In this document: in pieces, positions 26,815-43,084 of the stretch | Layout: the number at the start of each line of letters is the position of its first letter | Numbering within the stretch: the stretch's first letter is position 1 | Origin: Amycolatopsis sp. 195334CR | GTDB taxonomy: Bacteria > Actinomycetota > Actinomycetes > Mycobacteriales > Pseudonocardiaceae | Direction of reading: 5' to 3' | Length of the DNA: 64,000 bases | NCBI RefSeq assembly: GCF_017309385.1 | Contig: NZ_JAFJMJ010000001.1 | Span: forward strand, 434,001-498,000 | Translations under genes and position numbers: made by a program | The notes under the pieces: model-generated | The model's database searches: none | What the model saw: only the letters and a program-made list of their open reading frames with translations | What the model was told of the DNA's origin: nothing

Positions 26815-28422
26815 TTACGTCCTCACGCGGAGGCTCTTGTGGACCAGGGCGTCGCACAGCGCGAGCCAGCTGGCTTCGACGATGTTGCCGTGCACCCCGA
26901 CCGTGGTCCACTCGCGGCTGCCGTCGGTGGTCTCCACCAGCACCCTGGTCACCGCGTCGGTGCCGGGGTGCCCGGGCAGGATGCGCACCTTGTAGTCGGC
27001 CAGCTCCACACTGTCCAACCAGGACAGATGCGGGGTGAGCGCCTCGCGCAGCGCGGCGTCGAGCGCGTGCACCGGGCCGTTGCCCTCGGCGGTGGCGATC
27101 ACCCGCTGCCCGCCGACGTGCACCTTGACCGTGGCCTCGGACACGATCTCGCCGTCCGCGCGGTGGTCGAGCACCACGCGGTAGGACTCCAGCACGAACG
27201 GCGGCTCCTCGAGCGCCTCCCCCGCTTCCCGGCGCAGCAGCAATTCCAGCGAGGCGTCGGCGGCTTCGAAGGACCAGCCCTCGGCCTCCAGCCGCTTCAC
27301 CTTGTGCACCGCGCTGGTCAGCGCTTCGGGCCGGCCGGCAAGGTCAACCCCCAACTCACGTCCCTTGAGTTCGAGGCTGGCCCTGCCGGCCATCTCGGTG
27401 ACCAGTACCCGCATGTCGTTGCCGACCGAAGGGGGATCGATGTGGTTGTACAGCAACGGATCCACCTTGATCGCGCTCGCGTGCAACCCCGCCTTGTGGG
27501 CAAAGGCCGAAGCTCCCACATAAGCCTGGTGGGCGTAGGGGGCGATGTTCGCGATTTCGGCAAGAGCATGGGAGACGCGGGTGAGCTCGGCGGCGTTCCC
27601 GGTGGGGAGCACCTCCATGCCGAGCTTGGCCACCAGGTTTCCCGTCACGGCGAACAGATCGGCGTTGCCCGCCCGTTCCCCGTAACCGTTGGCGGTGCAC
27701 TGGACGTGCGTCGCGCCGGCCTGCACGGCGGCGATGCTGTTCGCCACCGCGCAGGAAGTGTCGTCCTGACAATGGATACCGAGCCGGAACCCGGTGCGGT
27801 CCTTGACTTCGCGCACGGTCTCGGCCAGGCCCAGCGGGAGCTGGCCGCCGTTGGTGTCGCACAGCACCACCACGTCGGCCCCGGCACCGGCGGCCGCGTC
27901 GGCCACCCGTAGCGCGGTGTCCCGGCTGAACGCATAACCGTCGAAAAAGTGTTCCAGGTCAACAAAAACGCGACGGCCTTCGCGGACGAGGAACTCGACG
28001 GTGTCCCGCACCATCTCGCACGCCTCGGCCACCTCGACCTTGAGCGCGCGCTCGATGTGCCGCAGGTCGGACTTCGCGACCAGGGTGACCGCGGGTGCCC
28101 GCGAGTCGAGCAGCGCGCGCACCTGCGGGTCCTTTTCCGCGCTGGTACCGGCTTTGCGCGTGGCTCCGAACGCGACCAGCACCGCGTGCTTGAGGCTCAG
28201 CTCCCCCGCCGCCTTCGCGAAGAACTCGGTGTCCTTCGGCAGCGCGCCCGGCCAGCCGCCTTCGATGAAGCCGACGCCGAGTTCGTCGAGCAGCCGCGCC
28301 ACGGCGAGCTTGTCGGTCACCGAGTAGGAAATGCCCTCGCGCTGGGCCCCGTCCCGCAACGTCGTGTCGTAGAGGTGGAACTCGTCGCCCAGCGCGGTTC
28401 CGGCCGGTTCGGTGCGAGTCAC
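26815..28422 (-). CDS. cimA: (R)-citramalate synthase
   Basis: A 535-residue enzyme of the LeuA/DRE-TIM family that condenses pyruvate and acetyl-CoA to citramalate, the threonine-independent entry to isoleucine. DTTLRDGAQREG is the DRE motif, HCQDDTSCAVANS carries metal ligands, and a C-terminal regulatory (LeuA allosteric) domain lies at about 400-535. GTG at 28422 follows GGAGAA. It is controlled by the attenuator leader upstream (28465-28609). The length and HCQDDTSCA favour CimA over LeuA. Confidence 0.9.
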   Translation of the reverse strand: MTRTEPAGTALGDEFHLYDTTLRDGAQREGISYSVTDKLAVARLLDELGVGFIEGGWPGALPKDTEFFAKAAGELSLKHAVLVAFGATRKAGTSAEKDPQVRALLDSRAPAVTLVAKSDLRHIERALKVEVAEACEMVRDTVEFLVREGRRVFVDLEHFFDGYAFSRDTALRVADAAAGAGADVVVLCDTNGGQLPLGLAETVREVKDRTGFRLGIHCQDDTSCAVANSIAAVQAGATHVQCTANGYGERAGNADLFAVTGNLVAKLGMEVLPTGNAAELTRVSHALAEIANIAPYAHQAYVGASAFAHKAGLHASAIKVDPLLYNHIDPPSVGNDMRVLVTEMAGRASLELKGRELGVDLAGRPEALTSAVHKVKRLEAEGWSFEAADASLELLLRREAGEALEEPPFVLESYRVVLDHRADGEIVSEATVKVHVGGQRVIATAEGNGPVHALDAALREALTPHLSWLDSVELADYKVRILPGHPGTDAVTRVLVETTDGSREWTTVGVHGNIVEASWLALCDALVHKSLRVRT

Positions 28423-28464
28423 GGGATTCTCCTCGATTCGTGGCGAAAAAGGCCTCAGAACAGC

Positions 28465-28495
28465 AAAAAACCTCCCGCAGGATGATGCGAGAGGT
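28465..28495 (-). terminator. Attenuator terminator before cimA
   Basis: On the minus strand ACCTCTCGCA, loop TCATCC, TGCGGGAGGT, then six T's: a 10-bp stem with one G-U pair. It lies 43 nt upstream of cimA and after the leader peptide and hairpin, so it would stop transcription unless an alternative fold forms. Confidence 0.8.
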
Positions 28496-28496
28496 C

Positions 28497-28534
28497 GCGC
28501 GCCGGGTGTTCGTGAGAACAGCTACCCGGCGCGC
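28497..28534 (-). promoter_or_regulatory. Leader hairpin overlapping the cimA leader peptide stop
   Basis: Arms GCGCGCCGGGT and ACCCGGCGCGC (11 bp, perfect) enclose a 16-nt loop that contains a second GTTC/GAAC stem. On the minus strand the first arm begins right after the two Ile codons and includes the leader stop. Stalled or released ribosomes would change its folding. The exact antiterminator pairing is not resolved by eye. Confidence 0.65.
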
Positions 28535-28572
28535 CTGCCGATAATGCTGGCGGCGAAGAACGTGACAGTCAC
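28522..28572 (-). CDS. cimA leader peptide
   Basis: A 16-codon open frame, GTG to TAG, reads VTVTFFAASIIGRRAG, with GTG read as initiator Met. The adjacent Ile codons ATT ATC are the control codons expected for a gene in isoleucine synthesis. It is too short for ordinary gene calling. GTG lies 7 nt after a -10 box, so the messenger is probably leaderless. Confidence 0.7.
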   Translation of the reverse strand: MTVTFFAASIIGRRAG

Positions 28573-28579
28573 GAGGCCG

Positions 28580-28609
28580 ATAGTGCCACAGACCCGCCCG
28601 GGGTTCCAA
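28580..28609 (-). promoter_or_regulatory. Leaderless promoter of the cimA leader
   Basis: TTGGAA (28604-28609) is -35, CACTAT (28580-28585) is -10, with an 18-bp spacer. Transcription would start about 7 nt downstream at the leader GTG. The arrangement matches the ilvB promoter exactly. Confidence 0.6.
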
Positions 28610-28642
28610 GCCCTGGCCAACTTCTCCCACATGCTGGAACCC

Positions 28643-28701
28643 AATGCTATGAGTGGGGCATTACTTGCGTTGATTGCAAGTAATGCCCCACTCATAGCAT
28701 T
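28643..28701. repeat. 26-bp perfect palindrome downstream of leuB (copy 1)
   Basis: Two 26-bp arms (28643-28668, 28676-28701) pair perfectly around the 7-nt loop GTTGATT. The same element, with two arm changes, lies after ilvD at 45587-45645. It starts 10 nt beyond the leuB stop and probably ends its transcript. It is unusually long and AT-rich for the genome. Confidence 0.85.
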
Positions 28702-28711
28702 CAGGTGCGGC

Positions 28712-29749
28712 TCAGGCGGTGCGGGTGTTCGAGGAGACGAGGGCGGCCAGGCGGTCGCCGATGGCGTGGGTGGAACCGGGGTTGGCCTGGTCGCGGGTGG
28801 CCAGGTCGAAGGCCACCGAGGCCTCGATCCGGCGCGCGGCCTCCTTCTGGCCGAGGTGGTCCAGCAGCAGCGCCACCGAGAGCACCGCGGCGGTCGGGTC
28901 GGCCAGCGCCTGCCCGGCGATGTCCGGCGCGCTGCCGTGCACCGGCTCGAACATGCTCGGGTTGCGGCGGGTGATGTCCAGGTTCCCGCTGGCGGCCAGG
29001 CCGATGCCACCGGTCACCGCGGCGGACAGGTCGGTGATGATGTCGCCGAACAGGTTGTCGGTGACGATCACGTCGAAGCGGCCGGGGTCGGTGACCATGT
29101 GGATGGTCGCGGCGTCCACGTGGGAGTAGGCCACGGTGACGTCGGGGTGCTCCAGCGAGACCTCCTCGACCACGCGCGACCACAGCGAACCGGCGTGCTC
29201 CAGCACGTTGGTCTTGTGCAGCAGGGTCAGGTGCTTGCGCGGGCGCTGCTCGGCCCGGTCGAAGGCGTCGGAGACGACCCGCCGGATGCCGAACGCGGTG
29301 TTCACGCTCACCTCGGTGGCGATCTCGTGCTCGGTGTCCTTGCGCAGCAGACCGCCGTTGCCCGCGTACGGGCCTTCGGTGCCTTCGCGGACCACGACCA
29401 TGTCGATCTCGCTGGTGTCGGCCAGCGGGCCGCGCACCCCCGGGTAGAGCCGGGCCGGGCGCAGGTTCACGTGGTGGTCGAGCTCGAACCGCAGGCGCAG
29501 CAGCAGGCCGCGCTCGAGGATGCCGCTGGGCACCGTCGGGTCGCCGACCGCGCCGAGCAGGATCGCGTCGTGCTGGCGCAGCTCGCCGAGCACCGACTCG
29601 GGGAGCAGCTCGCCGGTGGAGTGCCACCGCGCGGCGCCGAGGTCGTAGTTGGTGGTCTCCGCGTTGGGCGCTACCTCACCAAGCACCTTCAGCGCCTCGG
29701 TGACCACCTCGGGCCCGATCCCGTCACCTGGGATCACAGCGAGCCGCAT
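28712..29749 (-). CDS. leuB: 3-isopropylmalate dehydrogenase
   Basis: A 345-residue NAD-dependent decarboxylating dehydrogenase of leucine synthesis. [10 protein letters not shown] opens the fold, [13 protein letters not shown] and [12 protein letters not shown] contain substrate residues, and [12 protein letters not shown] and [13 protein letters not shown] are classic. The length matches the short actinobacterial LeuB. ATG at 29749 has GGAGG 8 nt upstream; upstream codons are not part of it. It is transcribed toward cimA but separated from it by the palindrome. No adjacent leuA or leuCD. Confidence 0.95.
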
Positions 29750-42973: not shown

Positions 42974-43010
42974 AAAAAACCCCCGCCGACCGATAAAGGT
43001 CGCACGAGGG
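42974..43010 (-). terminator. Attenuator terminator before ilvB
   Basis: On the minus strand CCCTCGTGCGACC, loop TTTATC, GGTCGGCGGGGG, then six T's: an imperfect GC-rich stem 28 nt before ilvB. Same position in the leader as the cimA terminator. Confidence 0.8.
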
Positions 43011-43012
43011 TC

Positions 43013-43052
43013 GCGCGTCGACGCAGCGGGCTCTCCCTAAGCGTCGACGCGC
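43013..43052 (-). promoter_or_regulatory. Leader hairpin overlapping the ilvB leader peptide
   Basis: GCGCGTCGACGC and GCGTCGACGCGC (12-bp perfect stem) around a 16-nt loop that contains GGG/CCC. On the minus strand the first arm covers the last codons of the leader, immediately before its stop. The arrangement equals the cimA leader. Confidence 0.65.
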
Positions 43053-43084
43053 TGAGGAAGTACGAGGCCGGTCTGCGGTGTCAC
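43037..43084 (-). CDS. ilvB leader peptide
   Basis: A 15-codon frame, GTG to TAG, reads VTPQTGLVLPQRVDA, initiator GTG. The Leu-Val-Leu run and a second Val are control codons for branched-chain amino acid supply. Leaderless, 7 nt after the -10. Confidence 0.75.
   Translation of the reverse strand: MTPQTGLVLPQRVDA

Follow-up and report, generated by a model that had tools for sequence, protein, structure and literature searches.

The gap in front of the citramalate synthase gene cimA holds a conserved isoleucine leader-peptide attenuator, a reading that is well supported by sequence comparison; the attenuator appears to be new and widespread, and it falls within a known kind of control. It is probably a ribosome-mediated transcription attenuator that would set cimA expression by the supply of isoleucyl-tRNA, with the hairpin over the end of the leader ORF (H1) serving as antiterminator to the intrinsic terminator that follows it (T). 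The original prediction had already named an Ile leader-peptide attenuator before cimA, and this is still the best reading, given that its parts occur together across the class and that the control codons change with the gene. The prediction left the role of the overlapping hairpin open; most likely it is an antiterminator and not a trp-like pause hairpin. The analysis started from a stretch of 64,000 nucleotides (the window), which covers positions 434001-498000 of a contig in a 9.9-Mb genome, and the element proved to be widespread in the class and no local oddity.

The gene downstream is a citramalate synthase by the equivalog model, as had been predicted, its product scoring 575.8 bits against the NCBI equivalog TIGR00977 (cut-off 450). 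leuB (28712-29749, minus strand) lies upstream of cimA on the same strand, and the element sits in the gap between them (Table 1). Every position that had been given for a 16-codon leader ORF with adjacent Ile codons is correct on the minus strand, base for base, and the arms of the 11-bp hairpin overlapping the ORF end are located as described; they are 100% complementary, and the hairpin spans the last codons of the ORF. The terminator with six T's was found where it had been predicted, as the single site in a terminator scan of 28300-28900 (0.4 expected), and since H1 ends at 28497 and T starts at 28496 there are zero bases between the two hairpins. The region 28423-28580 folds with z = -3.75, and 0 of 200 shuffles folded as well. 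An outer helix, in which the Ile-codon side pairs with bases after the U-tract, is present in some folds; it was set aside because its distal bases lie beyond the termination site. As for the leaderless promoter of the original prediction, the -35-like and -10-like hexamers are there as described, but a promoter scan around the leader with an E. coli-like rule called no promoter, because this rule demands more than CACTAT offers. The distance of the -10-like hexamer to the GTG reads as that of a leaderless transcript, with a putative transcription start at the leader.

Table 1. Features of the cimA attenuator and of the sister element before ilvB, in window positions.
Feature	Positions	Strand	Basis and remarks
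cimA, citramalate synthase, 535 aa	26815-28422	-	TIGR00977 equivalog; Pfam HMGL-like, LeuA_dimer
Shine-Dalgarno-like GAGGAG of cimA	28429-28434	-	sequence
Intrinsic terminator T	28465-28496	-	stem 28496-28486 with 28479-28469, loop 28485-28480, six T's 28470-28465
H1 3' arm ACCCGGCGCGC	28497-28507	-	flush against terminator T
H1 5' arm GCGCGCCGGGT	28524-28534	-	end of ORF, overlaps T of TAG; covariation
Control codons ATT ATC (Ile-Ile)	28540-28545	-	-11 and -8 from H1 base
Leader ORF VTVTFFAASIIGRRAG, 16 codons + TAG (28524-28522)	28522-28572	-	GTG start 28572; frame conservation
-10-like CACTAT	28580-28585	-	sequence; 7 nt before leader GTG
-35-like TTGGAA	28604-28609	-	sequence; 18-nt spacer to -10
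ilvB leader H1 (43052-43041 with 43024-43013) and flush terminator with six T's (43012-42974)	42974-43052	-	coordinates read off sequence
ilvB leader ORF VTPQTGLVLPQRVDA, control codons CTC GTA CTT	43037-43084	-	sister element in window

Between leuB and the cimA promoter, positions 28643-28701 form an inverted repeat of 59 bases without a mismatch, made up of 26-nt arms and a 7-nt loop. It is a high-copy dispersed palindrome: its arm (21 bases, up to 3 mismatches) was found at 70 forward and 70 reverse sites in the genome and at 0 with the reversed control, and among the places listed most of the sites stand as facing pairs. A search of 27900-29000 with Rfam 15 gave 7 matches with E no higher than 5, none of which reaches the gathering score, and in 10 relatives the number at gathering score was likewise 0; the best of the weak matches (miRNA families) mark only this palindrome and were rejected. 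A lone terminator would suit the leuB-cimA gap, which also holds the inverted repeat, and the site could therefore be read as a terminator that acts constitutively on the leuB transcript from upstream, or as a small RNA, with the ORF arising by chance. The evidence from the reading frame, the codons and the match of codons to gene, given below, speaks against this, and we regard it as very improbable.

The attenuator that we favour would work as follows. RNA polymerase would start at or beside the leader start codon, and a ribosome would load on the leaderless message. When isoleucine is plentiful, the ribosome would pass the Ile codons as far as the stop codon and cover the whole 5' arm of H1; with H1 blocked, T would form together with its U-tract, and transcription would end before cimA. 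When isoleucine is short, the ribosome would stall at the Ile codons, its front reaching the base of H1 or slightly into it, H1 would fold, and by abutting the base of T it would hinder the completion of T in the polymerase, so that cimA would be transcribed. In this scheme H1 is free on starvation and blocked in plenty, and it would thus behave as an antiterminator.

Comparison across relatives provides strong and, in our opinion, decisive evidence for the element, beyond what folding scores offer. The CimA search confirmed 570 loci, and the best 80 named ones were used for the comparison; the best 38 named relatives are all Amycolatopsis, which places the window in or close to that genus. 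Leader, H1 and T stand before cimA in 80/80 of these loci, of which an earlier and narrower element pattern had missed 5. Among the same best 80 of 570, a start codon lies 5-8 nt past a -10-like hexamer and in frame with the Ile run in 78, an off-frame start codon (additional or sole) occurs in 6, and all 80 have a stop codon in the Ile frame within 36 nt, compared with 1/80 and 7/80 for the other two frames. A -35-like hexamer (at least 4/6 against TTGACA) is positioned 16-19 nt before the -10 in 56/80, versus 60/800 control positions, and the -10 is CATGAT in 53/80, the gap to ATG or GTG being mostly 6-7 nt; the CACTAT of the window departs from this commonest form. The codon aligned to the first Ile codon of the window is ATT in 80/80, although only 38 of the 1075 Ile codons in the cimA genes of the same loci are ATT. 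Most of the best 80 of 570 relatives have three adjacent Ile codons; the window copy has two, as has its closest relative (L084), and the preceding codon in the window is AGC (Ser).

Two further cimA-like loci deserve mention. In one genome of the genus (G047:C1:480176-481776) the cimA match falls in three pieces; either the gene is broken or the sequence has an error there. Another cimA-like gene of full length (L002, G000:C2:2244868-2246463), 78% identical, begins 3 nt downstream of what by eye is a type II thioesterase gene, which in turn follows an aminotransferase-like gene (also by eye); this gap has no room for a leader or a terminator, and the gene is perhaps an unattenuated copy feeding a biosynthetic cluster.

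The spread of the element was followed with a covariance model built from 34 sequences (R1). In its own genome R1 has one significant place; the weak matches there (L114, L115 and L116, E 0.139 to 0.834) were all dropped, L114 lying within a long open frame and L115 being H1 read on the opposite strand. In the family, 186/200 genomes carry a match, a figure that counts model matches and not loci read individually, and 13 of the 14 genomes without one belong to two genera. In the class the figure is 236/394. When the class sample is divided by the presence of cimA (best TIGR00977 E <1e-40 in a class sample matched in size and handles, with 10 genomes of intermediate scores among the cimA-bearing), an R1 match anywhere in the genome is found in 229/313 cimA-bearing versus 7/81 cimA-less genomes. 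Three families supply 64 of the 84 cimA-bearing genomes that have no match; matches were found there in 6/34 (f20), 8/40 (f28) and 1/5 (f41) genomes, and in 214/234 of all others.

We read the downstream gene at 91 element loci outside the named set, picked as best matches, then mainly one per genus, then from genomes with a second or cimA-less match; the gene was cimA in 69 (by tblastn), ilvB in 17, leuS in 3 and a small unnamed protein in 2, and these shares are no census. From the class search, 24 of the 29 fetched loci were carried into later analysis. For ilvB, 16/17 were confirmed by tblastn with the IlvB of the window, the 17th (L284) being cut by a contig end, and for leuS 3/3 scored above the cut-off of TIGR00396. 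The small protein (~100 aa), preceded by an Ile attenuator, occurs in two genomes of one genus (L144 and L154; f22 g73); that of L154 has no Pfam or NCBIfam match and by eye resembles an ACT-type regulatory domain, and one may ask whether the product could be an Ile-controlled regulator.

A sample of 296 genomes of the phylum gave 40 with an R1 match at E <= 0.001, some of them outside the class. Among 15 phylum loci that were read, the element stands before ilvB in 8, leuA in 2, cimA in 1 and cysteine-hydrolase-like genes in 2; of the other two, L296 is truncated and L299 appears to be unrelated. Only at 4 of the 15 did the script pick out a leader ORF together with a -10-like hexamer. The two loci with hydrolase-like genes (L297 and L298, outside the class) have attenuator-like leaders before genes resembling cysteine hydrolases by eye (start MTKTALLIVDMQNDLAH); the L297 leader ends VVVT, and the L297 product has no NCBIfam match at 1e-20.

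For the comparison of elements, 149 cimA, 17 ilvB and 3 leuS elements were used. Dropped before these counts were two matches at L266 (G063), which are opposite strands of one terminator, and the weak matches L281 and L282, which by eye are coding sequence. Adjacent Ile codons are present in 145/149 cimA leaders and in 0/17 ilvB and 0/3 leuS leaders, and adjacent Leu/Val codons are present in 17/17 ilvB leaders. An exception is L260, which stands outside the 149 cimA rows, its gene having been identified only later: cimA lies downstream, yet its leader carries a run of Leu (MTNLLLT). In the control runs of the cimA leaders, the rare Ile codon ATT is used in strong excess. In 66 more distant leaders, ATT makes up 81/150 Ile-run codons versus 45/944 Ile codons in the adjoining cimA stretches, and at least one ATT is found in 62 of the 66 Ile runs of cimA leaders outside the named family. 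The ilvB leaders likewise favour GTA and CTT, and in C. glutamicum the control codons of ilvBNC are given as CUU and GUA in the available text of PMC11857589. The ilvB leader MRTRILVLGKRVG of genus g28 is a letter-for-letter match to the S. lividans IlvL as printed in the available part of PMC8079986, which suggests that g28 is Streptomyces.

Both the pairing and the placement of the two hairpins are conserved. In 63 distinct class sequences, 101 double-changed pair cells were counted versus 24.1 in shuffles, and 98.2% of the cells were paired, with 0/500 shuffles as high in either measure; this alignment was fitted to the model and leans towards it. Two of the five covariation measures were not beyond the shuffles, namely double-change pairs (34/500 as high) and pair types (195/500 as high). 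The spacer between H1 and T measures 0 nt in 134/149 and 1 nt in 15/149 cimA elements, and in all 149 cimA, 17 ilvB and 3 leuS elements it is 0-1 nt, with the first control codon between -20 and -9 relative to the base of the hairpin. Among cimA elements the Ile run begins 17 to 9 nt before the H1 base (80 at -14 and 33 at -11, n = 149), and the stop codon lies at -3 to +1 from the H1 base in 36 elements and at +10 to +16 in 113.

The leading edge of the ribosome was set, after E. coli footprints, 12 nt beyond the A-site codon's first base. With this footprint, stalling at the first control codon would put 0-4 nt of the H1 5' arm under the ribosome in every one of the 149 cimA elements, and arrival at the stop codon at least 10 nt. 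If stalling should leave at least 5 bp of H1 free, and if the whole uninterrupted arm should be covered at the stop codon, both are seen in 137/149 cimA, 16/17 ilvB and 3/3 leuS elements. The window has its first Ile codon at -11, where a stalled ribosome would cover two H1 bases; 33/149 elements share this arrangement. Since the genomes are related and the loci were selected by the model, these geometry counts are not independent events. Because the class loci had been found by a model that fixes the position of the Ile codons, 30 loci picked by CimA protein score alone were also read with a model-free script. The terminator, the abutting hairpin (at a gap of -3 to 1 nt as this script counts it) and an ORF whose Ile codon lies 17 to 11 nt ahead of that hairpin are present in 25/30, with no terminator seen in the other 5/30; many of these 30 loci come from genomes that R1 also matches, so the reading is independent and the genomes are not.

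The leader ORF, the control codons, the hairpin over the ORF end and the terminator are the usual parts of a classical trp/his-type attenuator, in which H1 (segments 1:2) would be the pause hairpin and a 2:3 antiterminator would form on stalling. The folding results are difficult to reconcile with this. T had a mean pair probability of at least 0.88 in every ribosome state (at each Ile codon, at the stop, absent) in 81/81 sequences, and segments 2 and 3 alone fold no better than shuffles (mean z +0.43, with 1/172 elements below -2), so a trp-like 2:3 antiterminator is not seen. Moreover, stalling at the first control codon would leave almost all of segment 1 uncovered, and such a switch needs the opposite. 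The 2:3 antiterminator was rejected on the folding with ribosome states and the segment shuffles, and we consider the trp/his-type reading quite improbable. An overlapping antiterminator as in C. glutamicum was looked for as well and not found: pairs shared by H1 and T are absent in 136/149 cimA elements, where H1 continues into T with 0 contiguous outward pairs, the other 13 having 1-2. A 3-bp helix with the start of T, in any register, is possible in 14/149 cimA and 6/17 ilvB elements.

H1 and T can co-exist, and folding shows no exclusion of T by H1. With no thermodynamic switch and with compatible hairpins, the hindrance of T by H1 would have to be kinetic or steric, and as the overlap is missing and the abutment conserved, we propose that H1, lying flush with T, may hinder T from closing inside the polymerase. 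That no base-paired switch was found would also fit attenuation by other means, such as a protein or uncharged-tRNA ligand, Rho, or ribosome-polymerase coupling, in which H1 would be only a pause or stability hairpin; codon changes in S. coelicolor ilvB without regulatory effect, cited in the available text of PMC1262725, point the same way. Nevertheless, each kind of gene has its own control codons, rare ones are preferred among them, and neither the T-box, a riboswitch nor any other Rfam family reaches its gathering score, which together make such means unlikely in comparison with the antiterminator role of H1.

To hypothesize further, the branched-chain pathway across Actinomycetota might share one modular attenuator chassis that switches by abutment and not by competing base pairs, an idea that we put forward tentatively. 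It would possibly consist of codons that are rare and encode the end product, then a stop codon, a hairpin acting as antiterminator and a terminator flush with it, and the codons would perhaps be swapped per gene (Ile in front of cimA, Leu/Val in front of ilvB, Leu in front of leuS and leuA). On the same doubtful footing, a helix flush with the terminator base could be one that cannot be held inside RNA polymerase, so that the terminator could not close.

The original prediction also held that a cimA attenuator was not well described, and this holds as far as the searches reached: full-text searches, which covered few subscription journals and main texts only, gave no report of one, and the kind of switch was already known. 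For Actinobacteria, Seliverstov 2005 (PMC1262725) describes leader peptides or related elements upstream of the trp, trpS, leuS, ilvB, leuA and cys genes, with no mention of cimA or citramalate in the available text. The accessible part of the S. lividans reannotation (PMC8079986) gives eight attenuators, none for cimA, the ilvB-II motif paper (PMC10272879) treats ilvB only in the part available, and the Streptomyces transcript-end literature, as far as its text is accessible, has nothing on cimA regarding attenuation or isoleucine. The isoleucine branch point may be added to the genes that are apparently under ribosome-mediated attenuation in Actinobacteria. The most interesting feature seems to be an antiterminator that would work by lying flush against the terminator. 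Given many natural variants, a strict layout and no overlapping antiterminator, a sharp and testable question follows, namely how an adjacent hairpin prevents termination; the unclear S. coelicolor ilvB results cited in the available text of PMC1262725 leave the same question open. The element is also a possible handle for engineering the supply of isoleucine or 2-oxobutyrate in these producers.

In E. coli, the trp, his and ilvGMEDA leader attenuators work with a ribosome that stalls at control codons before an intrinsic terminator. The cimA element differs from these in that no 2:3 antiterminator was found and in that the stall leaves H1 nearly free and segment 1 unmasked. A leader ORF, a run of end-product codons and a related synthase gene are shared with the LEU element before leuA, which is set apart by its description as a pseudoknot in which the codon run pairs with the Shine-Dalgarno box (available text of PMC1262725). 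The actinobacterial ilvB leaders (ilvBNC/ilvBHC) have a leaderless short ORF with branched-chain codons, a hairpin over the stop region and a flush intrinsic terminator, and some of them are matched by the same covariance model; they differ in their Leu/Val codons with GTA and CTT, where the cimA element has Ile-Ile(-Ile) with ATT. For two of them the accessible texts describe a switch that follows the logic proposed here: in M. tuberculosis ilvB1 the antiterminator is masked once a ribosome stands at the stop codon (PMC13236596), and in C. glutamicum ilvBNC the antiterminator and terminator hairpins stand side by side with a 3-nt overlap (PMC11857589), unlike H1 and T of cimA, which do without this overlap. 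The Streptomyces leuS leaders (Seliverstov 2005; LeuL2 of S. lividans) have the same layout, as seen in the three leuS leaders that the model matched, and differ from the cimA element in their Leu codons and in the gene, a tRNA synthetase; they are called classical attenuators with antiterminator hairpins in the available text of PMC1262725. With the same layout before ilvB and leuS, the cimA element thus joins the known leader-peptide attenuators of actinobacteria.
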